Positions 18,900-35,809 of a DNA stretch of 64,000 bases are shown here, piece after piece. Source of the DNA: Pseudomonas tensinigenes (GTDB lineage: Bacteria > Pseudomonadota > Gammaproteobacteria > Pseudomonadales > Pseudomonadaceae); NCBI RefSeq assembly GCF_014268445.2, contig NZ_CP077089.1:3899501-3963500 (forward strand). The letters run 5' to 3'. Below the pieces are notes generated by a model. The model did no database searches, was not told where the DNA came from, and saw only the letters and a list, made by a program, of their open reading frames with translations. Numbering within the stretch: the stretch's first letter is position 1; each line of letters opens with the position of its first letter. The position numbers and the translations under genes are program-made.

Positions 18900-19667
18900 A
18901 TGCCCGATCATGCCCGCACCACCACCGCAGCCCTCCTCATCAGACACCCGACTGTCGAGATGGTCACTCCAACCTATCAAAGCGACGACGAGACCCTTGA
19001 CGGCGGTGTTTGCCGCGGCATGGCCAGCCGCTGGATCGGCGCACAATTGCTTGGCGGCAAGAACGTCGCCCAATTCCGCATACTTGCGAACAACACTGAC
19101 GGTAAAGTGAACATGGAGTTCGTCAGGTACCAGGCTGCATTCAACGCTGTTGGCAAAGAGTTCGATAGCGCGTGTGTCCAATACGAAAACCTCAGGGCCG
19201 AGGCCGATCGGCTGAAGGGCGTATTCAACGGGACGCTCGAGAAGGGCTGGTTCGAATGGATGCCGACCGCGCAAAGCGTTGCAGACGCTGAGGAGGCAGC
19301 GTTGAAAGCAGAGAAAACGCTTCTGGCATCAGTCAGCATTCTGTACAGATATATGTCGGGCGGACTTCACGAGGTCAAAAAGGTAACCGATGTTGACTAC
19401 ACCACCTTTGAGCAAGCGCTCCACACGCACCTCACGGGGAATGGTTTCTACTACATCGGTCTCGGCGGCACACACGCAATCGCCTTCTACATCGCACAAG
19501 CGGGCGAATGCCTGTTCATCGACGCCAATACTGGCGAATGGAAGTCGCCAGATCTTGCGACCTTGTCGACTTTTTTCAGCGACTATATGTCCAGCCTTTA
19601 CCTGACCGAGTACGCAGGAAAGCGAGTCGATATTTACCACCTCCCGCACATGCTCGACGCCACCTAG
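18900..19667 (+). CDS. YopT/AvrPphB-type (C58) cysteine protease domain protein, candidate secreted effector
   Basis: The 255-residue protein has the C58 papain-like signature in the right order and spacing. The nucleophile motif is GGVCRGMASRWI with Cys38, the histidine motif GGTHAIAFYI with His192, and the acid motif FIDANTGEW with Asp208. The 16-residue His-Asp gap equals that of YopT as I recall it. Residues 60-170 are a helical insert. C58 enzymes are type III effectors or toxin modules that cleave host proteins. AAGGAG lies 7 bases before the ATG. No chaperone, secretion genes or known N-terminal targeting sequence is visible nearby. Confidence 0.78.
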   Translation: MPDHARTTTAALLIRHPTVEMVTPTYQSDDETLDGGVCRGMASRWIGAQLLGGKNVAQFRILANNTDGKVNMEFVRYQAAFNAVGKEFDSACVQYENLRAEADRLKGVFNGTLEKGWFEWMPTAQSVADAEEAALKAEKTLLASVSILYRYMSGGLHEVKKVTDVDYTTFEQALHTHLTGNGFYYIGLGGTHAIAFYIAQAGECLFIDANTGEWKSPDLATLSTFFSDYMSSLYLTEYAGKRVDIYHLPHMLDAT

Positions 19668-23068: not shown

Positions 23069-25450
23069 ATGCGCAACACATTGAAGTCGCTGATCCTTGT
23101 CGCGCTCATGCTGCTTGTTCCCGCCGGTTCGTCAATGTGGGCGGCGGATTTGCCAGCGCCCTCGACGAGCGCCGCCGCGCCGCTTGCGGTCATCAATCAA
23201 AGTGACTTGCAGGCCCTGCAACTGCGTCTCGACGGGCTCAAGCAACAGATCTCGTCCGCGAACAACTACAACCAGCTCGAGGGTCCGCAGGATCGGGTGC
23301 AGGCGTTCATTCTGGATGTCGACCGGTTGTCGGCGGCGTTGTTGCCGCAGCAGGCGCAGTTGGCCGTGCAGTTGGGAGTGCTGGGGGCCGCGCCGGACGC
23401 AGAGGTAGCGGCGGAACAGGCGGATATCGTCGCGCAACGGGCGTCCCTGGCGGAGCAGAAGAACAAAGTAGACGGGACGCTGAAGAGCCTGGCGGCGTTG
23501 AAGCAGAGCGCGGCGGATCTGATTACGCAGATCGCCGGCATCCGTCGCACACTGCTGGAAAGTGAGCTGACGCTGGGCACTGACAGCGTGTTGAGTCCAA
23601 GTTTCTGGTCGCCACTGGTGAGTCCGACCGAGGATGATCGTCAGCGTCTGCGTTTTTTCGTCGCGCAGGTGCGTGACACATGGGCCACCGTGTGGGCCCC
23701 GGGCCAACGCGTCTATACCAGTGTGCTGATGGCGTTGGCGCTGATCATCTGGACGTTCGGGCGCTGGCTCGCGGAACGGGGTCTGACCTGGGTGTGCATT
23801 TACCGCATGCCCGAGGGACGCCTGCGCCGCAGTGCACTGGCGTTCGCCTCGGCGCTGGCGACCATCGCCACCACCGGCATAGCCTTGCAGTTGCTGTTCT
23901 ATGCCTGCACCCGCCATCAACCTTTGCCGCCGGTGCTGGAAACTTTCTCCGAAGAGTTCGAGAAGGTCGTGTATGCCTGCGTGCTGCTCACCGGGTTGAG
24001 CCGCGCGTTGCTGTCGACCGAACATCCCTCGTGGCGCCTGCCGGCGATTGCCGATCAGGTGGCGCTGGCGCTCAAGCCCTACCCGCGCATTCTGTCCTGC
24101 ACGTTACTGGTGCTGGTGACGCTGGTGCAGGTCAGCAACGCCACCGGTATGAGCAGCCAGATCGTGATCGCCGGGCGCGGGGTCATTTCGATCGTCGTGC
24201 TGGCGATCGTGACGGTCCTGCTGTTGCGCGTCGGCAAGGTGCACAAGGCGCTGGTCGCGGCCGATGATGCGGCGGCGAACAGTACGTTTGCCGGGGTGAT
24301 TTACACCATTGCCGGCATCTCGATGTTTGTCTCGGCGATCGCGCTGCTGGCTGGCTACGTGTCGCTGGCGCGGTTCATCAGTTATGAGCTGGTGTGGGCG
24401 TACATTGTCTTGTCGGGTTTCTACCTGCTGATCCAGTTGATCAAGGATGTCTGCGAGCACGTGTTTTCGCCACGGCACGCTAGCGGCAAGGCGCTCAAAC
24501 AGTTATTGGGTATCGGTGATCGACGACTCGATCAGATTTCGATTCTGCTGTCCGGTTTCAGTCGGGCCGCGCTGTTGCTGCTGGCGGTCATCGCTCTGTT
24601 TGTCGGCGGCATCGGCACCACGCTCGGGCAACTGGCGAGCAATATCATGGCAATCCTTGGCGGCGCCGGGTTGCGCAAGCTGAACATCGTTCCCGGCCAT
24701 CTGCTCAATGCCGTGCTGGCGCTGATGATCGGCATCTGGCTGATCCGCGCCCTGCGCCGCTGGCTCGACAATGAGTTCCTGCCCAAGACCGACATGGACC
24801 CGGGCATGTGCGCTTCGCTGAGCACGCTGTTTTCCAACATCGGTTATGCCTTTGTGATTCTGCTGACGCTGTCGTCGCTGGGCGTGCAGTGGACCAATCT
24901 GGCGTGGATCGTCAGTGCGTTGTCAGTGGGCATCGGTTTCGGCTTGCAGGAGATCGTGAAGAACTTCGTCTCCGGCCTGATTCTGCTCACCGAGCGTCCG
25001 GTGAAAGTTGGCGATTTGATCAGCATCAGTGGCGTCGAAGGCGATATTCGCCGGATCAACGTGCGCGCCACGGAAATCCAGCTCAGCGACCGCTCGATTG
25101 TGATCGTGCCGAACTCGCAACTGATCTCGCAGAACCTGCGCAACGTGACACTGGGCGGCAGCGCGCAAGGCGTCGCATCGCTGGAGTTGGTGTTCCCGCT
25201 GGACATCGATCCCGAAGCGGTCAAAGACCTGTTGCTCACAACTTATCGGGAGAACGAAACCATCCTCGATAAACCGGCGCCGTTCGTGCGCTTCAGCAAG
25301 CTGTCGCCGGACGGAATCACCTTGACGGTGACCGGGTACGTGGGCAGCCCGAGGATTGTCGGGGTGACCAAGAGCGATCTTTTGTTCGAAGTGCTCAAGC
25401 GTCTGGGGGCGGCGGGAATTGCGCTGGCGCAGCCGGCGGCGAGTACGTGA
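23069..25450 (+). CDS. MscS-family mechanosensitive channel with DUF3772 periplasmic domain
   Basis: The 793-residue protein has a signal-like first helix, then a coiled-coil-rich DUF3772 periplasmic region (about 45-190). About ten membrane helices (220-590) follow, and the MscS pore-lining and beta domains at about 600-785. The TM3-like segment is LSVGIGFGLQEIVKNFVSGLILLTERPVKVGD, and the beta domain contains IVIVPNSQLISQ. Such large channels open under membrane tension and protect against osmotic downshock. The gene is monocistronic on the plus strand and converges on the operon ending at 25455. Confidence 0.88.
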   Translation: MRNTLKSLILVALMLLVPAGSSMWAADLPAPSTSAAAPLAVINQSDLQALQLRLDGLKQQISSANNYNQLEGPQDRVQAFILDVDRLSAALLPQQAQLAVQLGVLGAAPDAEVAAEQADIVAQRASLAEQKNKVDGTLKSLAALKQSAADLITQIAGIRRTLLESELTLGTDSVLSPSFWSPLVSPTEDDRQRLRFFVAQVRDTWATVWAPGQRVYTSVLMALALIIWTFGRWLAERGLTWVCIYRMPEGRLRRSALAFASALATIATTGIALQLLFYACTRHQPLPPVLETFSEEFEKVVYACVLLTGLSRALLSTEHPSWRLPAIADQVALALKPYPRILSCTLLVLVTLVQVSNATGMSSQIVIAGRGVISIVVLAIVTVLLLRVGKVHKALVAADDAAANSTFAGVIYTIAGISMFVSAIALLAGYVSLARFISYELVWAYIVLSGFYLLIQLIKDVCEHVFSPRHASGKALKQLLGIGDRRLDQISILLSGFSRAALLLLAVIALFVGGIGTTLGQLASNIMAILGGAGLRKLNIVPGHLLNAVLALMIGIWLIRALRRWLDNEFLPKTDMDPGMCASLSTLFSNIGYAFVILLTLSSLGVQWTNLAWIVSALSVGIGFGLQEIVKNFVSGLILLTERPVKVGDLISISGVEGDIRRINVRATEIQLSDRSIVIVPNSQLISQNLRNVTLGGSAQGVASLELVFPLDIDPEAVKDLLLTTYRENETILDKPAPFVRFSKLSPDGITLTVTGYVGSPRIVGVTKSDLLFEVLKRLGAAGIALAQPAAST

Positions 25451-25454
25451 GTAA

Positions 25455-26573
25455 TCAATGAGGCGAACAACCGCCGATTTCCTGCACGACGCGGTCCGCC
25501 AAAGCCAGACAGCTCGTCAGCCCCGGAGACTCGATGCCAAACAGATTCACCAGACCCGGCACGCCATGCGCCGCTGGGCCACTGATGACAAAGTCCGCCG
25601 CCGGTTGCTGTTCGCCGCTGATCTTCGGGCGGATGCCGCTGTACGCCGGTTGCAGACTGCCATCGGGCAGCCCCGGCCAATAGCGGCGAATCGCCTGATA
25701 AAAGCTGTCGGCCCGCTGCGGGTCAACGCGGTAATCAACGTCCGCGACCCATTCCACATCCGGCCCGAAGCGCGCCTGCCCCGCGAGGTCGAGCGTCATG
25801 TGGACACCGAGTCCGGCGGCTTCGGGTGCGGGGTAGACCAGATGGCGAAAAGGTATCCGCCCGCTGAAGCTGAAATAGCTGCCTTTGCACAACCGCGGCA
25901 CGGGAATGAACGATGAGCACAGGCCGGTGATACGACTTGCGACTTGCGGCGCCGACAAACCGGCACAATTGACCAGTTCGCGACAACCCAGGGTCATGGG
26001 CTGCGCACCGCCCATCCGCAACTCGATCCCGGCAGGGTGACAGCGGGCGGATTCAAACGGGGTATGAAAGGCAAACGAGGTGCCCATGGACTCGGCATCC
26101 GCTTGCAGGGCGAGCATCAAGGCATGGGAGTCGACAATTCCGGTGGAGGGCGACCAGAGTGCCGCGACACAGGACAGTTCCGGCTCCAGCGCCAGCGCCT
26201 GGCGCGCGTCGAGCAACTGCAAGCCCTCGACACCGTTGCGCCGCCCCTGCTCCCACAAGCGTTGCAAGGCACCGCGCTGCGCGTCATCGGTCGCAACGAT
26301 CAGCTTGCCCAGACGCTGGCAAGCCACGGCGTGCGCCTCACAGAAGGCATACAGACGACGGTTGCCTTGCACACACATTTGCGCCTTCAAGCTGTTGCCG
26401 GCGTAATAGATACCGGCATGGATGACCTCTGAATTGCGCGAACTGATGCCCGTCCCGATGCCCTCGCCCGCCTCCACCACAATCACTTCACGCCCACTCG
26501 AGGCCAGTGCCCGGGCCACCGCCAGCCCGAGCACACCGGCGCCGATCACTACGCATTCGATATCGATATTCAC
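25455..26573 (-). CDS. FAD-dependent oxidoreductase, L-2-hydroxyglutarate oxidase (LhgO) family
   Basis: The start is a GTG at 26573, whose GTGA overlaps the stop of the aminotransferase gene. The 372-residue protein begins [24 protein letters not shown] (FAD Rossmann) and contains [21 protein letters not shown], the hallmark of the LhgO/L2HGDH group of DAO enzymes. Those oxidise 2-hydroxy acids. In this operon it may instead oxidise a hydroxyl of a sugar- or serine-derived intermediate, possibly making the keto substrate for the DegT aminotransferase; this is inference. It is the last gene of the nine-gene operon. Confidence 0.8.
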
Positions 26574-27673
26574 CGCCCCTCCGTGCGTTCGAATTGCTTG
26601 ATCAGCGTGGTGACCTTCTCCACCTCGCCATCCGACAAATGATGATGACAAGGAAGGGTGAGCATTTGCCGGGACAGACGTTCGGTATTGGCCAGCACGA
26701 GGCGCGGCTGACTGCTCAACCAGGCTTTTTGCCAATGGATGGGCAGCGGATAATGAATCGCCGTTTGCACATCGTACTGCGCCAGAAACGCCTGCAAGCG
26801 ATCACGATTTTGCGACTGCACGACATAGTGATAATAGGAATTTCCCGGCTTGCCGCCACCCAGGTCGGTACCCGTACGAGTGGTGCCGAGGACGTCATCA
26901 TAGAAAGCGGCGATTTCCACACGTCTTTTCAGCCATTGATCCAGATACTGCGCTTTGACATTGAGCGCCGCGGCCTGCAACGAGTCGAGGCGCGAATTGA
27001 TCCCGAACCGCACCGATTCGTTACGGGTTTCCAGGCCATGATTGCGTGCAATACGTGCGTATTCGGCAATCTTCGGATTGCGGGTGACCAGCATCCCGCC
27101 ATCCCCCAGGCCCCCAAGCGTCTTCAACGGATGCATGGAAAAGGCTGAGGCATCGCCTCGAGTGCCGACTTGCTGACCGTCGAGGGTAGTGCCGATCGCC
27201 TGTGCGCAATCCTCGATGACGGCCACTGCGCGGGCACGGCACAGGTCGAGGATGGCATCGATATTCAGCGGACGTCCGCGCAGATAGACCGGAATGACCG
27301 CTTTGGTCCGCTCATTCAAAAGGGGCGCGATCGTATCGACGTTCATCAGCTCATCGTCGCCCACGTCCGCCAGGATCGGCCGGGCACCTGCCGCCACAAT
27401 GGCACCGACGGTGGCGACAAAGGTATTGGCGCAGGTAATGACTTCGTCGCCAGGCCCGATATCCAGCGCACGCAATGCCAGAAACAACGCATCCGTGCCT
27501 GAATTGAGGGCCACCGCATGCGCCCCGCCACAGCGTTCCGACATCCAGGCTTCGAACGCCAGAACCTCTTCACCCAGGATGAATTCGCCTGACTGCAGGA
27601 GCGCCTGCCAGCGCTCGAAAATCTCGCTCGAAAGGTCTTGGGCCTGTTCCTGGACGTTATTGCACTTGATCAT
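26570..27673 (-). CDS. DegT/DnrJ/EryC1/StrS-family PLP aminotransferase (sugar aminotransferase)
   Basis: The ATG at 27673 has AAGGAG 8 bases upstream. The 367-residue protein has the family blocks [42 protein letters not shown] and the PLP lysine at about 184 in [15 protein letters not shown]. The histidine/lysine and C-terminal [10 protein letters not shown] substrate-pocket segment are also present. These enzymes place an amino group on keto-sugars, mostly nucleotide-bound, using glutamate. It overlaps the MFS gene upstream by 17 bases and the LhgO-like gene downstream by 4, so expression is tightly coupled. Confidence 0.9.
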
Positions 27674-28898
27674 TTCGCGCACTCCTTGGCATGAACATGA
27701 GGGAAGTCAGGACAATCAGCAGGGTCCCGACCGCACTGACAACAGCGGTAAGCGTGAGGGTCTGGGAGTAGCCGACGATTCCGCCGACCACACCGCTGCC
27801 CAGATAGATGAAGGGGTGCACGCCGCTGGTCACGAAGGTATCGACCGCCACGACCTTGCCCAGATCCTTCTCCGGGGAATGTGTCTGCATGGCAGTTGCC
27901 CAGCCGGTGAGCCAGGAGGCTTCGACGATGCCGACGAACGTCGCCCCCAGAATCGCCATCCACGCCGATGTGCCCAGCCCGAGCAAGGCCATTGCCCCCG
28001 CGAGGAACAATCCGCAAGTGACGGCGAGCCCCACCAGTCGCTCATGCCCCGAGGCCAGCACCGTGATGACCGAACCGATGCAAGCGCCGAACCCCGATGC
28101 CGCCAGGCAATAACCCCACATGTCTTCACTGAAGCGCTGACTGATCGCATAAGGGGCAACGACCAGAAAGATCGGGAAACACAACACGTTCACCACCAGC
28201 GTCGCGGCAAAACCCAACAGCAGCGTGGCGTTGTTGACGACCACGGTGATGCCGTTGAGCGCTTCACGCAGCGAGAACTCTTCTTCCGATTCATGGTGGC
28301 CGACATTCGGCAGCTGCGCGGTGTAAATGGCAGCGCAGAAGAAGGTCAGCCCATCGATCAGGATCCCCCACACTGGGTCCCAAAGAATGATGAACACCCC
28401 TAGCGTCGCCGGAAACAGAATGGCGACCAGGTTATCGATGAAGTTCATCGCCCCGTTGCCCGCCACCAGGGCCTTTTTCGGCAACAGATTGACCAGCAGC
28501 ACCTGTGCACAGGGTTTCGATACACCAATACCGATACCGAAGATCAGATACGCCAGCACCAAAAAGCCCCAGTGCGCCCCTGTCACCAGCAGCGCAACGG
28601 CGGCCAGTTGCGCAAGGCCTCGCGCCGTATCGGTGTAGATGAGTACCTGCCGGGGCGATTTGCGATCCGCCAGCATCCCCCCGGCCAGCGCACCGATAAC
28701 GGTTCCGACACCGACGGCAGCCATGATGAAACCAAATACATCACCACCGAAACCGTCGCGAATCAGTGCGATCGGCAGCGCCGCCAGGCAGATGGCATCG
28801 CCGGCCATCGACAGGCCCTGGCCAATCAGCAACTTGCGAAACGGCAAGACACCCAAGGCTTCGTTGTAAGGTGACAAGCGTTCTTTGATAGAAATCAT
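27657..28898 (-). CDS. Major facilitator superfamily transporter (MFS_3/EntS-like exporter)
   Basis: The 413-residue protein has about twelve hydrophobic helices. The between-helix-2-and-3 motif is GGMLADRKSPRQVLIYTD and the helix-1 segment is RKLLIGQGLSMAGDAICLAALPIAL, typical of the MFS_3 group that includes the enterobactin exporter EntS. In an operon with sugar and aminotransferase enzymes it most likely exports the product; import of a substrate cannot be excluded. ATGA overlap with the GH65 stop. Confidence 0.87.
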   Translation of the reverse strand: MISIKERLSPYNEALGVLPFRKLLIGQGLSMAGDAICLAALPIALIRDGFGGDVFGFIMAAVGVGTVIGALAGGMLADRKSPRQVLIYTDTARGLAQLAAVALLVTGAHWGFLVLAYLIFGIGIGVSKPCAQVLLVNLLPKKALVAGNGAMNFIDNLVAILFPATLGVFIILWDPVWGILIDGLTFFCAAIYTAQLPNVGHHESEEEFSLREALNGITVVVNNATLLLGFAATLVVNVLCFPIFLVVAPYAISQRFSEDMWGYCLAASGFGACIGSVITVLASGHERLVGLAVTCGLFLAGAMALLGLGTSAWMAILGATFVGIVEASWLTGWATAMQTHSPEKDLGKVVAVDTFVTSGVHPFIYLGSGVVGGIVGYSQTLTLTAVVSAVGTLLIVLTSLMFMPRSARNDQVQ

Positions 28899-31159
28899 GG
28901 GTGCCCCTCCTTGAGGCCTATTCGTCCATCCTCGCCGCGCTGGGTCGGCAACTGGCGATCGCCGTGGCGAATCTCCAGCTCGTCGTCACCGAGTACGGAA
29001 ATCCGCAGTCTTTGCCCGCGGAACTGCAGAGTGAAATGGTAAGCCTGCCAGTGTGCGGGCAACTTCGGTCGGAAGGCCAGTTGGCCCGATTCGATATCCA
29101 GCCCCGACAGCCCCTCGACCAATCCTTGCCAGGCGCCGGCATAGGCGGAAAGATGCAGCCCGTTGCTGTAGTCGTCGACCGGCGTGAAGTCGAGGTTATA
29201 GCGGCTGGCCCGGGCAATGAAATCGGCACTGGTGTGCGTCTCGCCCAGATGCGCGGCGACGACGGCATGCGGGCCGTAACTCAACGAGGACTCATGCACC
29301 GTACGCGGTTCATAGTAATTGAACGCGGCGCGCTTCACGGCCGCTGAAAAATCGTCGGGAAACATCGACATCAACAGCACGATGTCAGCCTGCTTGACCA
29401 GTTGCGAATCGAAGTTTTGCAGTTTCTCCGCGCTGTCGCGTTCGACCTCGTCGGCAAACTGCGGCCCACGCTGTTTGACCACACGCAGGCGGGTGTCCGG
29501 CAATGCCGCGTAACCTTCGAACTCCTCAGGAATGGCCACCCCGTCCACCGTGATCCACGGCAGGTAGACGTTATCGGCTATCGCTTGCCAGAGTCGGCGT
29601 TGCGCGCCAGACACCCCGGGAAAGCCCGGGCGGTCCAGCAATGAAAGCACCCGCCGGATACTCCAGCGCAGCAGGTAATTGGTAAAGAAACTGTTGTTCA
29701 CGTGGTAGTGATACTCGTCCGGGCCCATGACCGAATTCACCACATAGGCCTGCTTGCTCTCTGACCACTTGAACACCGATGCCGCGAATCGAGCGCTTTC
29801 AATCAGGATATCGAAGCCCCGAGACGCCATGAACGCGTCATCACCGGTTACCGCCCAGTACTTGTTCACGGCATAGCTGACGTCTGCCGAAATGTGCAGC
29901 ACCTCATCGACACTCCACTCTCGCCTTATGTCCTGTTCAGGATAGGACAACACATAATGCGGGCCATTTTCGCCGCCCTGATCGTTGGACGCCTCCGGGA
30001 ACCGTGCGCCGCAAAAGCCAGTGGAACGCGCGAACTGCAGCGCTTTTTCAATGAAGGTGTAGCGGTAGTCAATCAATGCCCTGGCAACGTCCGGCGCGTT
30101 CCAGATCCAGAACATGCACTTGTGCAGTTCGGTGTCGAAGAACGTCGCACCAGAATGGTAAGTGCTGGTCAGGCCTCGCGCCGGCGATATCGTGCCATTG
30201 ACGCCATGCGCTGCGCCGAGGCCATGTTGCAGTAATTGGAATACTGCGTACTTCATACCCAGATCAGTGCACGTGTGCGGAGCCTGAATGGTGACTTCAT
30301 GCTCACGCCAGAGGCTGTTCCATTGGCTCAAATGACAGCCTTGAATCCTTGCGACATCAAAGTCGCCGGCAAACGTGTCAGGGTGGGTCTGATCGCTATC
30401 GACGCCCACCCGCCAATGCGTCACCAACCGGTGCTGGCTGACCGCTGCAAAGTCGAGGGTCACCGAAGCCACACAACCCTCTTGCCCCTGCCGCCAGGAA
30501 ACGACGGAACTCGCCGTTGAATCCGCCTGTTCGACGCGCACGTCATAACGCAGCCGCTGCTCGGCCGTGTCGACGATCAGGCTGAACGACGCTTGATCGA
30601 CAACGCTTTGCCCGAAATGGTAATGCCGCGCGGTCAGCCAGTCACAAGCCCCGAGGTATTCGTTCGACGCGCTGCCATCCACTCCGTAATCAAGCCTCAA
30701 TCGATGGCCTGCGGTGCCAGTGCCGAGGCGTTTCAAACTGATCTGCGTCGACACCGCCGCCTGATCCGGGGCATCAATGAACTGGGTGACCGTCAGCTCA
30801 TATTGCACACCGGCCAGCTGAAACTGCTCGCAACTGCTGACGGTCGCCTGATCGAGTGCCAACACCACCACGGGTTCGTTGCTTGCCGGCTCAAGCGGCA
30901 ACCCCGTATCAACATCGTAAAGCCGCAGGATGGCCGGCGCGGGCAAGGCAATGATTTCCCGCGAGACGCCGACACCGGCCGCATACACCCCCGCCAACAG
31001 CAACTGCGTGCGCCGGCTGCGTGGCGATGCGTTGGGCATGTGCGCACGCACGCCGAGCAAGGGATTGGCCAGGGTCGCCACGCACGCCGCGAAGGACGAC
31101 GATCTCGCGTCGATCGCGACAATGTCTTCGCGGTGCTCGCCGTAGGAAATGCTCAGCAC
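28895..31159 (-). CDS. Glycoside hydrolase family 65 disaccharide phosphorylase
   Basis: The GTG at 31159 has AGGAGG 5 bases upstream and lies inside the end of the epimerase gene, giving 754 residues, the usual GH65 length. An N-terminal beta-sandwich domain is followed by the (alpha/alpha)6 barrel with the general acid in VMGPDEYHYHVNN (Glu near 484). The phosphate-site KQADIVLLM and HESSLSYGPHAV blocks follow, then a short beta domain. GH65 enzymes reversibly convert maltose, trehalose, kojibiose or similar sugars and phosphate to beta-glucose 1-phosphate. The linkage specificity is not readable. Beside a beta-phosphoglucomutase-like gene it could run in the synthetic direction. Confidence 0.88.
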   Translation of the reverse strand: MLSISYGEHREDIVAIDARSSSFAACVATLANPLLGVRAHMPNASPRSRRTQLLLAGVYAAGVGVSREIIALPAPAILRLYDVDTGLPLEPASNEPVVVLALDQATVSSCEQFQLAGVQYELTVTQFIDAPDQAAVSTQISLKRLGTGTAGHRLRLDYGVDGSASNEYLGACDWLTARHYHFGQSVVDQASFSLIVDTAEQRLRYDVRVEQADSTASSVVSWRQGQEGCVASVTLDFAAVSQHRLVTHWRVGVDSDQTHPDTFAGDFDVARIQGCHLSQWNSLWREHEVTIQAPHTCTDLGMKYAVFQLLQHGLGAAHGVNGTISPARGLTSTYHSGATFFDTELHKCMFWIWNAPDVARALIDYRYTFIEKALQFARSTGFCGARFPEASNDQGGENGPHYVLSYPEQDIRREWSVDEVLHISADVSYAVNKYWAVTGDDAFMASRGFDILIESARFAASVFKWSESKQAYVVNSVMGPDEYHYHVNNSFFTNYLLRWSIRRVLSLLDRPGFPGVSGAQRRLWQAIADNVYLPWITVDGVAIPEEFEGYAALPDTRLRVVKQRGPQFADEVERDSAEKLQNFDSQLVKQADIVLLMSMFPDDFSAAVKRAAFNYYEPRTVHESSLSYGPHAVVAAHLGETHTSADFIARASRYNLDFTPVDDYSNGLHLSAYAGAWQGLVEGLSGLDIESGQLAFRPKLPAHWQAYHFTLQFRGQRLRISVLGDDELEIRHGDRQLPTQRGEDGRIGLKEGHP

Positions 31160-32199
31160 GATGCGCCTCCTGACGCCTGGAACGACCAGTCGTTGTGCAG
31201 CATGTTGCGTACGTTGTGATAACGGATATCCGCTAACACATCGCCGCTGTCCTTGAAGTTCCCCGACTGCCACTGCTCGCAGATTTCGACGATCGCATCG
31301 CGGATCGAAAAGATGAATTCGAAACCCAGCGTCTGTTGCACCCGTCGGGAATCCAGCCGGTAGGATCGAACATCGTCACTGTGGGTCGTGGTGATCGGCA
31401 CATTGGTGCGGAAGTACCGATCGACAATCTCTTTTACCTGACTGGCAATGTCGGTCACCGTGTGGTTCTCGTAGCCGACATTGATTGCCGTCCCGGACAC
31501 CTCGCCTAGGGACTCCCGTTCGACCAGCATCGTATACAGCCGGGTCAGATCGCCGATATGCACGTTAGGGCGATACTGACTGCCGCCGAATACGGTGATT
31601 TCACCGCGCGCCAGCGCACTGGCGGTCAGGATGTTCACGGTCAGATCCAGACGTTGCCGAGGCGACCAGCCGCACACCGTGGCGGCGCGAACCGCGACAG
31701 TCTCGAACGATGAATCGGTCAGTTCGAAGAGTATCTTCTCGCCATCAGCCTTGAACCGGTTGTAGTCGGTGATGGGCACGCAGGGCTGGCGTTCGTCGAC
31801 AAAAGGTTCTGCATTGACGCCGTAGACACTCGCTGAAGACGCGTAGATAAAACGCCGGCAACCCAGACGCTTGGCGCTGCTCATGAGATGCGGCAGGCAA
31901 TCGATGTTTATCGATTGGCCCAGTTCCGGGGCCGAATTGAAACTCGGATCGTTCGCCACTGCAGCAAGATGCACAACGGTGTCGACACCTTGCAGCGACG
32001 TTTCCACGAGCGCCGGATCGCGTATGTCGCCCTTGATGAATTCCAGGCCGGGATGGTTCAGCAAACCTTCGAGCCCGTTGCCGAAATACAGCGCATCCAG
32101 CACCCGGACGCGGTACCCGGCGGCAAGCAGTTTGGGCACCAGACGCGAGCCAATGTAGCCAGCACCGCCGGTAACAAGAACAGTTGATTCCTTTTTCAT
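31153..32199 (-). CDS. NAD-dependent epimerase/dehydratase (extended SDR, nucleotide-sugar type)
   Basis: The 348-residue extended short-chain dehydrogenase has the NAD motif VTGGAGYIGSRLVPKLLAAG at about 9-27. The SSASVYG serine lies near 125, the catalytic YxxxK is YNRFK near 153, and a VNILTASALARGEITVFGG substrate-domain segment follows. It resembles UDP-glucose 4-epimerase and dTDP-glucose 4,6-dehydratase relatives. In the operon it would epimerise or oxidise the activated sugar. Ribosome site GGAAGGAA precedes the ATG, 2 bases beyond the HAD stop. Confidence 0.87.
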   Translation of the reverse strand: MKKESTVLVTGGAGYIGSRLVPKLLAAGYRVRVLDALYFGNGLEGLLNHPGLEFIKGDIRDPALVETSLQGVDTVVHLAAVANDPSFNSAPELGQSINIDCLPHLMSSAKRLGCRRFIYASSASVYGVNAEPFVDERQPCVPITDYNRFKADGEKILFELTDSSFETVAVRAATVCGWSPRQRLDLTVNILTASALARGEITVFGGSQYRPNVHIGDLTRLYTMLVERESLGEVSGTAINVGYENHTVTDIASQVKEIVDRYFRTNVPITTTHSDDVRSYRLDSRRVQQTLGFEFIFSIRDAIVEICEQWQSGNFKDSGDVLADIRYHNVRNMLHNDWSFQASGGASC

Positions 32200-32201
32200 G
32201 G

Positions 32202-32870
32202 TTAATTCCTTCCCTGTGATGAGTGCGCCAGCGTGAATTCATCAAGCGATGACAGTATTGAAGCGCGTGGATGGCTAGCCTTGGGTTCAAGCGGATCACG
32301 GCGAATCTGCCAGGCGCGCACGCCCAGGCCGCACGCCAGGTCAGTCGCATAGGGGCTGTCGTCGATCAGGTGAACATCCTGCGGAGCGTGGTCGCCGATC
32401 AGTTGTTGAACCAGTTTGTCGCGGGTTTGATGTGGTGCTTGCCGGGTAATCGAGACCGGCGCCTGTCCCCATACGTTCGCCCGTTTCAGCGCCGCCTCGA
32501 ACAATTGCGGAGCATTCAGCGACGCCGTATAGAACATCACCGGCTGCGCGGACGCTTCGATGCGCTGCAGCAATCGCAAAGAATCCTCGAACAGCTCGGT
32601 GCCCGGTGAGAGCCGCTGGAATTCCTCCTGTTTGTACGCGGCCAGTTCGTCGGCGCTGAACCTTGCGGACGTTGCACCGCCGGCATGACGGGTGGTCAGC
32701 GCCAGCAGTCGGGAAGCGCCTTCCATGCGTGGCCGCCCGGCGATGTGCTCGATGTATTGCTGCGATGTCAGTTGCTGTCCTGAAAACTCAAGGGCCGCAT
32801 TGCGCCAGGCTTCGAAATGCGGTGTGTCGATCATTGTTCCGTCGAGATCAATCAGTAAAAGGTTCGACAT
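32202..32870 (-). CDS. HAD-superfamily phosphatase/mutase, beta-phosphoglucomutase-like
   Basis: This 222-residue HAD enzyme has the nucleophile and acid DLDGT (Asp8 and Asp10). A helical cap carries HFEAWRNAAL and GRPRMEGASRLL, which resemble the substrate helices of beta-phosphoglucomutase. The threonine motif VMFYTAS and the acidic DDSPYATD end the core. beta-PGM partners GH65 phosphorylases by interconverting beta-glucose 1- and 6-phosphates. Without the full cap signature, a simple sugar-phosphate phosphatase is the alternative. It is 13 bases downstream of the nucleotidyltransferase gene. Confidence 0.78.
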   Translation of the reverse strand: MSNLLLIDLDGTMIDTPHFEAWRNAALEFSGQQLTSQQYIEHIAGRPRMEGASRLLALTTRHAGGATSARFSADELAAYKQEEFQRLSPGTELFEDSLRLLQRIEASAQPVMFYTASLNAPQLFEAALKRANVWGQAPVSITRQAPHQTRDKLVQQLIGDHAPQDVHLIDDSPYATDLACGLGVRAWQIRRDPLEPKASHPRASILSSLDEFTLAHSSQGRN

Positions 32871-32883
32871 GGTTGTTTACCTG

Positions 32884-33366
32884 TCAGCTGTTCTTGGCCA
32901 TGACCAGTTGAGCGATCCTGGAAGTCGAGTCGAATATCTTGTCGTCCGTCAGCACCATCCGCCCTCCCACGCTTTCAACCAGCGCCCGCTCCGCCTGCAG
33001 TCTGGTGTCCGATCCATCGGTGTAATCCGCGCCCTTGAAATACAAATTGGGGCGCAATGTCTTGATCATGAATTCAGCGGTAGCTGTATGGTTGACGATG
33101 ACGTAATCGCAATAACGGATGGAAGCGAGAAACTCCGCGCGCTTTCGATCGGGAAATACCGGCCGGTCCGCGCCTTTGTTCACGTATGGGTCTGCGGTGA
33201 CGGATACGAACAGTCGATCGACCATCGTATTGGCGCGCTGCAGATGATAAATATGCCCAGGGTGAACAATGTCAAAACAACCGTGACAAAGCCCGATCAC
33301 CAAACCTTTTTCGCGGCAATAAACCGCCTCGTCCTGCAATGCAGTAATGTCATTCAAAACGCCCAT
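32884..33366 (-). CDS. Nucleotidyltransferase, RfaE2/HldE-C or glycerol-3-phosphate cytidylyltransferase type
   Basis: The 160-residue protein has the HxGH nucleotidyl-transfer motif in CFDIVHPGHIYHL (35-38) and DRPVFPDRKRAEFLASI, the second family block. The RxxG-type KGADYTDGSDT lies near 115-125. The family activates sugar phosphates (D-glycero-beta-D-manno-heptose 1-phosphate with ATP) or polyol phosphates (glycerol 3-phosphate with CTP). It would supply the activated NDP or CDP sugar or aminoalcohol for the operon. It begins 7 bases after the GNAT stop. The nucleotide used cannot be told from the sequence. Confidence 0.85.
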   Translation of the reverse strand: MGVLNDITALQDEAVYCREKGLVIGLCHGCFDIVHPGHIYHLQRANTMVDRLFVSVTADPYVNKGADRPVFPDRKRAEFLASIRYCDYVIVNHTATAEFMIKTLRPNLYFKGADYTDGSDTRLQAERALVESVGGRMVLTDDKIFDSTSRIAQLVMAKNS

Positions 33367-33373
33367 GATAAAT

Positions 33374-33877
33374 TCAATCCTTTGATTTGAGAGATTTAGC
33401 CATGATGTTCAAGTGTTCAAACTCACCCCAATAATCGGGAAGTTGCCCGACGATCTGAAAGCCATTGCGTAAATGAAAGCGGTAGGCCGCCCGTTCTCTG
33501 TCGATATTGCCGATATCGAGACACAGCCAGGCCTTCTTATGTTCCAGTGCAAACTTTTCAATCTCGTCATATAACAAGGACGCAACGCCATATCGACGAT
33601 ATTCACTGTCAACAATCAACCAGTCTGCCCATAACACATGCTTTGACGGGATAGCGCCCGGAGCGCACCCCATGGTTCCGATGACCACATCGCCAAGTGC
33701 GGCAATAAAACGATCGCCCTCATGGTTTGGGTCAGCGAGTTCCCGGGCAAATTGCTCACCGGCAGATTCAGTCAAGTCCTCGCTGGAACCAATTTGTGCG
33801 ACCAGTGCCAGCACTGCCGGCATATCGGACTTTATGAATCGGCGAATGCAAATATCCCGATCAAGTTCATTTTCCAT
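33374..33877 (-). CDS. GNAT-family N-acetyltransferase of the biosynthetic operon
   Basis: The ATG at 33877 (MENELDRDICIRRF) lies inside the last codons of the class-III aminotransferase gene, an 11-base overlap that implies coupling. The 167-residue protein has the GNAT core: LIVDSEYRRYGVASLLYDE for acetyl-CoA binding near residues 85-105 and the end motif YRFHLRNGFQIVG. In this context it probably acetylates the amine made by one of the two aminotransferases, a self-protection or tailoring step. Confidence 0.85.
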   Translation of the reverse strand: MENELDRDICIRRFIKSDMPAVLALVAQIGSSEDLTESAGEQFARELADPNHEGDRFIAALGDVVIGTMGCAPGAIPSKHVLWADWLIVDSEYRRYGVASLLYDEIEKFALEHKKAWLCLDIGNIDRERAAYRFHLRNGFQIVGQLPDYWGEFEHLNIMAKSLKSKD

Positions 33878-35180
33878 GGAATGGAATCCTCTTGAGTGCC
33901 GAATCCAGTCGCTCACAGGCATCCGCGATCATTTCCGCTGTGTGCGCCGCGCTAAGTGTTACCGGCTCAGGACAGTAACCAAGGGGCATCAGAAAGCCAT
34001 ACAGGTTGTATTCGCAGGACAACAGATAAAACAACTTCTGGGCAAAATCGATCGGATAAAAACCTTCTATCTCCTTCATTGTCCGAGGACGTTCGGAAGT
34101 GCCGATATGGACGCCGATTCGACCGCCATAACCATCGATATGGCAAGGAATCCGGTGTTTATCGAAGACATCCCGAAGTCCCGATTTCAACTGAGACTCC
34201 AGCGCGGCGACGTGCCGATGCACCGCACCGTCCTGCAGGTGATCGATAGCGGCAAGTGCGGCGGACACAGAAAGATAGCGCCCGGTGTTGGTGCCACTGA
34301 TCTGCACCGGACCGCGGGGCGCGATGACATCCATGTACTCGGCTTTACCGGCAATCCCGGCGATGGGCATGCCGCAACCGAACGCCTTGCCGAAGGCGGC
34401 AATGTCAGGAGTGACCGCGAAATCTTTCTGCGCACCGCCGATATTGGCGCGAAACCCGGTCAGCACTTCATCGAAAATCAACAACGCCCCGTGCCGCGTG
34501 GTCAGTGCCCGCAACTCTTGCAGAAAGCCCTCGTCCGGTTTGATGCAGCCGAGGTTCAGGGCGACAGGCTCCAGAATCACGCCCGCGACATCGTCCTTGT
34601 ACTTTTCAAAGGCGTGCTCCACGGCTTGCAGATCGTTCCAAGAAACCGCCACCGTCAAACTTCCGAATTCGTTCGGAATACCCACAGTACCTGACAGACG
34701 CTCCAGTTCTCCGCCGGCCAATACCTCACCCGAGCGTGGCGAAGAATCCACGTTCCAGGTCAGCGAATCATTGAGCCCATGAAAATGGCCTTCAAACTTG
34801 ATGATGATTCGTTTGCCGGTAACGGCACGGGCAATGCGCGTTGCATACATGGTGGCTTCCAGGCCGGAGTTCACCAGTCGCAACTTCTCGGCGCACGGCA
34901 CCACCGCGCAAAACTTCTCGCTCAACAGGCGATGTTCATCGGTTTCGTATTGTTGGAGAAAACCTCGCTCCAAGGCTTTGCTGATCGAATGTTTGATGAC
35001 CGGACTGTCGTGCCCTAACAGGCATGAACCCCAGCCCATAATATAATCGTCGCACCATTCGCCAGAGGATAATTGAATACGCGCACCCGCAGTATTCTGC
35101 ACATTGATCGGCCCAACTACCGACAAGTGATTCCATCCTGACAGTACATTTCCAACACGTGTTTCCCTTAAACAATCCAT
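33867..35180 (-). CDS. Class-III PLP aminotransferase, glutamate-1-semialdehyde aminomutase-like
   Basis: The ATG at 35180 has AAGGAGTG about 10 bases upstream and gives 437 residues; the in-frame ATG at 35201 is an alternative. The fold-type-I blocks are NSGLEATMYATRIARAV, KFEGHFHGLND, LIFDEVLTGFR and the PLP lysine at about 265 in AFGKAFGCGMP. The closest known type is HemL-like enzymes that move or transfer an amino group on small aldehydes. HemL for haem is an unlikely role, since the gene leads an accessory operon. In other bacteria such paralogues serve in surface-sugar or natural-product pathways. Confidence 0.85.
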   Translation of the reverse strand: MDCLRETRVGNVLSGWNHLSVVGPINVQNTAGARIQLSSGEWCDDYIMGWGSCLLGHDSPVIKHSISKALERGFLQQYETDEHRLLSEKFCAVVPCAEKLRLVNSGLEATMYATRIARAVTGKRIIIKFEGHFHGLNDSLTWNVDSSPRSGEVLAGGELERLSGTVGIPNEFGSLTVAVSWNDLQAVEHAFEKYKDDVAGVILEPVALNLGCIKPDEGFLQELRALTTRHGALLIFDEVLTGFRANIGGAQKDFAVTPDIAAFGKAFGCGMPIAGIAGKAEYMDVIAPRGPVQISGTNTGRYLSVSAALAAIDHLQDGAVHRHVAALESQLKSGLRDVFDKHRIPCHIDGYGGRIGVHIGTSERPRTMKEIEGFYPIDFAQKLFYLLSCEYNLYGFLMPLGYCPEPVTLSAAHTAEMIADACERLDSALKRIPFHGK

Positions 35181-35809
35181 GACCACTGACACTCCTTTCA
35201 TACCATTGAGTGTGAATAACAACCCTGCACTCACGCAGGACACAGGCGCTATAAGGCATGCAAAAAAACTCACACGAAAAATCGCGCGACATTCGAAATC
35301 AGACAAATACTTAGTCAAGTAAAGTTGTGAAGAAAGAACCTAGTCTCGCCCCCTCACAGCGTCAATTTAAAAACTAAATCGCAAACACAACAAGCTGATT
35401 CCCATGAAGAAAAACTTTCCTTAAACACAAACAGCCAAACAACCCGCGCAGCTTATTTCAAAAAATTATAAATTAATTAAACAGCAAACTTATCAGCAGG
35501 TTATGCCATCCATTCCTACCAACGCTTCAATATAAAAAATCTGATACGCAAATTCCTCGAGCATCTGAGATGATCAATTAATTGTCCGACTATTCAAGAA
35601 GCAAAGGTCATCACTTAACAATTGGCGCACGGCAGCACATACCCGAAACTGACGCGAACCGCTTTAAAACCCTTGGACATGAAACGATTAAATACGCCGC
35701 AACCTCTTATTCCAGAAATAGAGGCCATGTAAGTTTTTTAATCTTTTATCGCTATTTAGCTCGCATTCTATAATTGCCCCGCCTGCACTCATATAAGAAG
35801 GAAAGCTCC
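35181..35809. promoter_or_regulatory. AT-rich divergent control region of the nine-gene operon
   Basis: About 600 bases between divergent transcription units are clearly richer in A and T than the rest of the window, especially 35330-35580 (for example the run ATAAATTAATTAAACAGC at 35470). No convincing gene is present; a 63-codon frame at 35582-35773 looks random. The low GC, in a GC-rich genome, suggests a silenced or horizontally acquired promoter of the kind bound by H-NS-like MvaT proteins. Individual -10/-35 boxes are not assigned. Confidence 0.55.

Follow-up and report, generated by a model that had tools for sequence, protein, structure and literature searches.

A mobile eight-gene core operon proposed to make and export an amino-sugar-containing glycoside

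What does a compact block of nine genes in the genome of Pseudomonas tensinigenes make? The block lies on the minus strand at 25455-35180 of the window, by which we mean the whole stretch of 64,000 nucleotides analyzed here. An original prediction, drawn from the DNA letters, took it for a nine-gene operon devoted to an amino-sugar or glycoside compound. This interpretation is supported by the gene set and its co-occurrence, with the product itself still a proposal. In our reading, which we regard as evenly balanced between right and wrong, the block is a mobile operon for the synthesis and export of a small glycoside that contains an N-acetylated amino sugar and is probably bioactive. In order of transcription, the genes encode a class III aminotransferase (A), an N-acetyltransferase (B), a nucleotidyltransferase (C), a haloacid dehalogenase (HAD) family protein (D), a short-chain dehydrogenase/reductase (SDR) (E), a glycoside hydrolase family 65 (GH65) protein (F), a major facilitator superfamily (MFS) exporter (G), a DegT/DnrJ aminotransferase (H), and an FAD oxidoreductase (I).

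An eight-gene core with an optional ninth gene

The nine open reading frames are intact and tightly packed, as predicted. After start refinement, the successive junctions from A to I measure -11, +7, +13, +2, -7, -4, -26, and -4 bp (i.e., five of eight overlap and the largest gap is 13 bp). Since every junction either overlaps or spans at most 13 bp, a single transcript is likely. Families were assigned using Pfam (E <= 0.001) and NCBIfam with its curated cut-offs. The assignments agree with the families originally named, except that the presumed epimerase E may be a dehydrogenase and that the flavin enzyme I falls in the L-2-hydroxyglutarate oxidase superfamily. As also anticipated, none of the nine proteins matches a Pfam model for a glycosyltransferase, nonribosomal peptide synthetase, or polyketide synthase. 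The operon is devoid of the signature genes on which cluster-detection programs rely. An anti-phage defense system was considered and rejected, PADLOC models matching none of the eight core proteins (A to H) at 1e-5; I matches one desaturase-type model (3.5e-6).

What had been viewed as a nine-gene unit is an eight-gene core followed by an optional ninth gene. A GH65 query matches once in the one-contig 6.6 Mb genome that contains the window, and when one genome per species was scanned, GH65 relatives turned up at 14 loci, including a distant one (L015). Once close relatives and plasmid records were added, tblastn revealed A to H co-linear in 15 distinct loci, window included. The Pseudomonas loci are the window, G019, L006, L002, G098, L004, and L005, to which is added a P. 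aeruginosa element (L030/L031) carrying the core amid integrative-element and conjugation genes. Elsewhere, the core is found in Klebsiella sp. BIGb0407 (L003), Xenorhabdus (L007 and L009), Photorhabdus (L013), and Paraburkholderia/Trinickia (L010 to L012). L030, a circular record of 22 kb, carries the same segment as L031; these two, 1 base apart in the operon, were counted once, as were L047 and L002 (same genome), and a third P. aeruginosa record (H2) is outside the count. Also outside are L008 (contig edge), L014/L019 (one genome, relic), L026/L049 (genome G232, relic), and L015 (the distant GH65, from Streptomyces). The 15 do include L003, L004, L009, and L010, which have frame breaks or missing ends.

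Within the genus (298 genomes), the class III gene (E <= 1e-100) and a full-length GH65 gene (E = 0) occur in the same four genomes and in 0 of the 294 others, with a Fisher p of 3e-9 when shared ancestry is ignored. Ten more of these genomes have weaker GH65 matches, two of which are relics of the operon. At the order level, a search at E <= 1e-120 found the window genome alone among 390. The genes are thus not scattered in relatives, A and full-length F sharing the same four genomes and the core being co-linear across genera.

As for acquisition by transfer, which had been suggested from the AT-rich control region, the comparison of loci strengthens the claim. In G011 (L045), flanking genes that enclose ~10.3 kb in the window are separated by only ~200 bp (blastn), and the stretch absent from that genome corresponds to 25424-35734, its ends being uncertain by tens of bases. 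When flanks were compared between 13 loci and the window, gene sets were common only to window/L006, L004/L005, and L008/L013, with a few single broad families (ABC, LysR type) recurring at other loci; the flanks in G019 are those of the window. The empty site and the differing flanks show that the operon moves horizontally. Moreover, the GH65 proteins of Klebsiella L003 and Pseudomonas L002 are about equally close to that of the window (79 and 76% identity, respectively), and the 520 bases upstream of A have a GC content of 0.41. The block transfers among plant-, insect-, and human-associated bacteria. A tRNA-targeted island was discarded, no tRNA having been found in the window. The intergenic empty site of G011 (L045 2659-2859) harbors a long near-perfect inverted repeat, similar in type to those of Pseudomonas REP elements.

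Purifying selection acts on all nine window genes. When compared with L006, dN/dS ranges from 0.04 to 0.24 for nine of nine genes, which, with the same gene order in other genera, confirms that the arrangement is beyond chance. When compared with G019, eight genes are measurable, and the ratio of 0.61 for C, where dS is 0.01, reflects too little change for a verdict. Pairwise protein distances among the eight core genes correlate at 0.78-0.99 in the 10 loci that pass a full-length filter. Some copies are nevertheless damaged. A is frame-broken or fragmented in L003 and L010, as are A and C in L004 (where A also meets a contig end), while E and F are incomplete in L009. Together with the relics in L014 and G232, this damage is what one would expect of largely decayed or selfish cargo devoid of function; that the nine window genes are all open, with dN/dS values against L006 well below 1, makes such cargo the least credible explanation of all. 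The G019 HAD gene (L046 9311-9976) stops six residues short of the usual end, which is probably harmless.

The sugar phosphate enzymes C, D, and F

D (32202-32870, minus strand) is predicted to be a C1-capped HAD protein resembling β-phosphoglucomutase (β-PGM), on the basis of PDB profile matches and a fold model. All 19 distinct PDB sequences retrieved at E <= 0.01 in the profile search are named β-PGM. There is no Pfam match at 0.001, and the NCBIfam β-PGM family scores 42.5 bits, below its cut-off of 153. The AlphaFold model (predicted local distance difference test, pLDDT, of 87.6) has an archaeal β-PGM, 4uw9, as its top Foldseek match. The residues that characterize C1-capped β-PGM are invariant in 14 of 14 sequences, namely D8 and D10 (the DxD of motif I) and R48 and K80 in the cap, the latter two being presumably equivalent to R49 and K76 in the Lactococcus enzyme.

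C (32884-33366, minus strand) is assigned to the nucleotidyltransferases of HldE C-domain/RfaE-II type (PF01467, cytidylyltransferase-like), and its HxGH and KGADY motifs are invariant in 12 of 12 sequences. Its best-scoring NCBIfam model is the β-heptose-1-phosphate adenylyltransferase (TIGR02199), yet the score of 101.8 bits is below the curated cut-off of 181.5. Judged by these matches, C is related to HldE C-domain nucleotidyltransferases, and heptose use is unsupported by the score. Among plasmid relatives of C and E, those ranking best behind the P. aeruginosa copies are found together in one Azospirillum region, which also encodes a SIS isomerase and a sugar kinase domain. A heptose pathway proper was rejected, the window block having neither the kinase nor the SIS isomerase gene that accompany these relatives. 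The Azospirillum oryzae plasmid region (L032 12926-22456) encodes a kinase-nucleotidyltransferase fusion, a SIS isomerase, three SDR-type proteins, a split transketolase, and two DegT proteins.

Since D is β-PGM-like, the best-scoring model for C (whose cut-off C does not reach) acts on a β-heptose-1-phosphate, and members of the family of F form or use β-sugar-1-phosphates, the three enzymes would meet at one unusual anomer, a β-sugar-1-phosphate.

F (28895-31159, minus strand) has the signature of a GH65 α-glycoside phosphorylase (PF03632, 2e-77; PF03633) with altered donor and acceptor subsites, and its closest PDB match is kojibiose phosphorylase. We compared 13 sequences, comprising the window and L002 to L013, the copies in G019, G098, and P. 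aeruginosa being outside this alignment. The general acid Glu of the GPDEYH motif is kept in all 13. The phosphate site of GH65 phosphorylases is described as Lys, His, and two Ser in the relevant passage of PMC8626586. In F, the His and both Ser are conserved (13/13), and the position inferred for Lys is occupied by Arg in all 13, as it is in 4ktp/4ktr, Lys being present in 3wiq, 1h54, and 6w0p. GH65 hydrolases, in which the phosphate-site residues are replaced and Glu616 is the general base, differ from F at the phosphate site, where F keeps those residues. Because the phosphate-site residues are kept, F is predicted to be a phosphorylase and not a hydrolase, which would form or cleave an α-glycoside.

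The sugar-binding residues are less orthodox. The same source passage lists Trp, Asp, Lys, and Gln as the donor site for glucose at -1, and calls them conserved (PMC8626586). F keeps Asp, Lys, and Gln (13/13), and has Phe in place of Trp in all 13 sequences, departing from a glucose donor site, while the Trp is present in the five of five solved relatives that we aligned. At the acceptor site, where passages of two papers place the W391-E392-T417 motif of kojibiose phosphorylase (PMC8626586 and PMC8537180), F has Glu-Ala instead of Trp391-Glu392 in 13 of 13 sequences, and thus does not share that acceptor signature. Since this second replacement sits at the acceptor site, the argument for a changed donor comes down to the Trp to Phe replacement, which places glucose as donor in doubt. 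To judge from these residues, F should act as a phosphorylase on a new pair of substrates. GH65 subgroups with no characterized member exist, and the six enzymes picked from these are from other genera, as reported in part of PMC8537180.

A different role for F must be weighed here, in which the operon is biosynthetic and F (with D) is degradative, releasing β-glucose-1-phosphate from trehalose or another host α-glucoside to feed C, so that the product would be no glycoside. The GH65 phosphorylases are known above all as degradative enzymes, often paired with β-PGM, and the phosphate released would be of the kind that C uses. However, the Phe found at the donor position in 13/13 cluster sequences, against Trp in 5/5 solved relatives, makes plain glucosides less likely substrates, and D alone could provide the phosphate. 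We consider this account rather unlikely.

Oxidation, amination, the ninth gene, and export

E (31153-32199, minus strand) is an SDR of the nucleotide-sugar epimerase/dehydrogenase group (PF01370, 5.5e-38), which we propose to be a nucleoside diphosphate (NDP)-sugar dehydrogenase. It aligns with PDB 6vo6, which we take to be Cj1427, at 112 bits, and the two have in common an SPRxRLDLxVN stretch that is absent from the other three PDB alignments examined. The SASVYG and YxRxK motifs are kept in 12 of 12 sequences; the structural model of E is of low confidence (pLDDT 57.4). From the resemblance to 6vo6, E may be a dehydrogenase rather than an epimerase. Cj1427 re-oxidizes its bound NADH with 2-oxoglutarate, producing L-2-hydroxyglutarate, according to the relevant part of PMC10680097. 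In P. aeruginosa O:3a,d, WbpB (the partner of WbpE) also relies on 2-oxoglutarate to re-oxidize NADH, which is not the case in all organisms (PMC10622841, in part).

The two aminotransferases are of distinct types. H, the last core gene (26570-27682, minus strand), is a predicted DegT/DnrJ sugar aminotransferase (PF01041, 1.1e-95), with QdtB and WbpE among its PDB matches. A, the first core gene (33867-35180, minus strand), is a predicted pyridoxal phosphate-dependent class III aminotransferase (PF00202, 7e-49) resembling HemL, the glutamate-1-semialdehyde aminomutase, a model that it matches at 316 bits, below the cut-off of 527. The top PDB sequence matches of A are likewise glutamate-1-semialdehyde aminomutases, and its translation contains an FGKA lysine motif. 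B (33374-33877, minus strand) is a GNAT N-acetyltransferase by family (PF00583, 1.4e-9), with 59-93% identity to the window copy in a 13-sequence alignment and four PDB matches, all weak.

The original prediction saw in the flavin enzyme a product-tailoring oxidase, which finds no support in the family to which it belongs. I (25455-26573, minus strand), the optional ninth gene, encodes a putative FAD oxidoreductase of the L-2-hydroxyglutarate oxidase superfamily (PF01266), matching PDB 3dme at 500 bits and 8w75, presumably an L-2-hydroxyglutarate dehydrogenase, at 107 bits. Against the curated LhgO model (NF008726, cut-off 299), the I proteins of the window and L002 score 197.7 and 196.4 bits, respectively, and do not pass. 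In the Xenorhabdus and Photorhabdus clusters scanned (X. szentirmaii, P. khanii, and P. bodei; three of three), a different LhgO occupies the same cluster position, passes at 564.5-585.7 bits, and is the only copy in the genome (E <= 1e-15). X. lircayensis has a broken LhgO copy in the cluster and an intact one elsewhere. The genomes of L010 to L012 have an LhgO-family match outside the cluster. The simplest account of these sequences would be that the ninth gene was captured twice from host pools, consistent with 2-hydroxyglutarate recycling; by analogy, I may recycle the 2-hydroxyglutarate produced by the SDR E.

G (27657-28898, minus strand) is a predicted MFS exporter of H+-antiporter type (PF07690, 4e-25; TIGR00900, 112 bits against a cut-off of 320). 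It is found in 9 of the 298 genus genomes: four with complete clusters, two with relics (G038 and G232), and three with the exporter only (G264, G275, and G292). In the latter three (L059, L058, and L060, respectively), a tblastn search with the nine proteins found the exporter alone nearby. In G292 the gene sits at the end of a contig, and A and F, the two proteins searched throughout that genome, have no match in it. In G232 (L049), fragments of F and H remain beside the exporter gene. The reading frame of the exporter is unbroken in G232, G275, and G292, all of which are without the class III gene and full-length GH65. Since the G232 and G275 exporters share neighbors, they probably stem from one ancestral insertion. 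With a dN of 0.029 and a dS of 0.152 between them, they are under constraint, weaker than in complete clusters. Such relics hint at self-protection against a bioactive product.

A proposed pathway and its standing

The gene families suggest the following order of reactions. D would first convert a sugar-6-phosphate into a β-sugar-1-phosphate, which C would activate to an NDP-β-sugar. E would then oxidize the NDP-sugar at C3 or C4 with NAD, and the NADH may be re-oxidized by 2-oxoglutarate to give L-2-hydroxyglutarate, by analogy with Cj1427 and WbpB. H would transaminate the keto-sugar with glutamate as donor, B would acetylate an amine, and A would add a second amine to the same or another fragment. 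F would couple a β-sugar-1-phosphate to an acceptor by reverse phosphorolysis, in place of a glycosyltransferase, or might alternatively run backwards and supply sugar phosphate. Finally, G would export the product and I, where present, would return 2-hydroxyglutarate to 2-oxoglutarate.

A bolder version of this pathway can be formulated, which we find possible though doubtful. Here the product would be a natural product assembled with no glycosyltransferase, the donor of F having shifted from glucose to a pathway-made β-amino-sugar phosphate or NDP-β-sugar from which an α-glycoside is synthesized, and the cluster would have its own 2-oxoglutarate/L-2-hydroxyglutarate loop (SDR, DegT, and LhgO-type oxidase), drawn on two occasions from the gene pools of its hosts.

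Several observations weigh against the proposed pathway. The only core NCBIfam match above its cut-off is a broad domain, TIGR00125 in C (52.1 against 27.7 bits). Pseudouridine-phosphate phosphatase takes ranks 2 and 3 in the Foldseek search with D, which, on its model, could be a phosphatase. The stretch shared by E and 6vo6 is no established marker of 2-oxoglutarate use. The exporter is broken in two of five relic loci (L014/G038 and G264). As for the ninth gene, I is absent from the cluster in L004, L005, L010 to L012, and the P. aeruginosa element, and the Klebsiella cluster (L003) retains just a broken remnant; no LhgO-family match is found in the genomes of L003, L004, L005, and L014 (E <= 1e-15). 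Since L004 and L005 have no such match and L003 only a remnant, the 2-oxoglutarate loop is not obligatory. An I-type gene is present in 65 of the 298 genus genomes, 4 of these with the cluster; of 30 Xenorhabdus genomes, 19 carry lhgO. With both genes so common outside the cluster, the position of the ninth gene within it could be partly opportunistic.

The oxidase also bears on whether the operon might be catabolic, serving uptake and breakdown of an amino-sugar glycoside. GH65 with β-PGM and an L-2-hydroxyglutarate oxidase is a combination typical of catabolism, and two Xenorhabdus genomes have a resident lhgO after a TRAP transporter gene, with no flank in common with the cluster-linked copies. 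Nevertheless, a nucleotidyltransferase, a DegT sugar aminotransferase, and an N-acetyltransferase suggest synthesis, the MFS protein resembles H+-antiporter exporters, and Pfam detects no regulator, binding protein, or secreted hydrolase among the nine proteins. We judge a catabolic role to be quite improbable. Slightly less probable still is a module decorating a surface polysaccharide or lipopolysaccharide. While the Azospirillum relatives of C and E are near glycosyltransferase genes and the family of H includes O-antigen enzymes, the nine genes comprise no glycosyltransferase, flippase, or polymerase and have an MFS exporter instead, and no polysaccharide neighbors are shared from one genus to another.

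Comparison with known systems points to an amino-sugar type pathway with an unusual combination of enzymes. The WbpB-WbpE-WbpD route to 3-acetamido NDP-sugars in P. aeruginosa O-antigen follows a similar logic of dehydrogenase, DegT-type aminotransferase, and acetyltransferase, to which the window adds GH65, a β-PGM-like HAD, an HldE-type nucleotidyltransferase, a class III aminotransferase, and an exporter. WbpB and WbpD have folds different from those of E (SDR) and B (GNAT). Kojibiose phosphorylase with β-PGM shares with the operon the general acid, the phosphate-site residues, and a β-PGM-like partner, and differs in the donor residue (Trp against Phe in F), the acceptor pair (Trp-Glu against Glu-Ala), and the biosynthetic-type gene set found here. 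Cj1427, to which E is likened by sequence alone, is a heptose C4-dehydrogenase of the Campylobacter capsule that acts on GDP-heptose (PMC10680097, in part).

Two small gene clusters were compared as well. The Photorhabdus adg operon for 3'-amino-3'-deoxyguanosine is also small, and its genes include one for amination and one for MFS export; however, it has five genes, four of them homologous to puromycin pur10, pur4, pur7, and pur3, and the passages describing it name neither GH65 nor phosphoglucomutase (PMC9239236). The Pantoea PNP-1 cluster, with Pseudomonas relatives, is likewise small and has aspartate-aminotransferase-family and MFS genes, but it includes carbamoyltransferase, formyltransferase, and SGNH-hydrolase genes, and its gene table has no GH65, nucleotidyltransferase, or DegT (PMC4010436, in part). 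Gene content, as given in these parts of the two papers, rules out both as the same pathway. Aimed literature searches, in which we considered the best-ranked matches and which covered few subscription journals, most being outside their reach, surfaced no published pathway with this gene set, in line with the original prediction. The operon would represent a conserved, transferable small-molecule pathway common to Pseudomonas, insect-associated Xenorhabdus/Photorhabdus, relatives of Burkholderia, and a P. aeruginosa mobile element. If F truly glycosylates, it would be a phosphorylase recruited into biosynthesis with a new donor, and the proposed steps yield direct predictions for in vitro assays.

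As for control of the operon, a riboswitch in the AT-rich leader was rejected, the 801 bases searched giving no Rfam match at E <= 1. A candidate promoter, TTGACG-17-TAGGTT (35337-35365, minus strand), was picked out by eye; it is weak and not in the consensus-scan list, and similar sequences are present in L002, L006, and L030. Elsewhere in the window, a predicted protein (18900-19667) has a sub-threshold match to Peptidase_C58, at 21.1 bits against a cut-off of 23.

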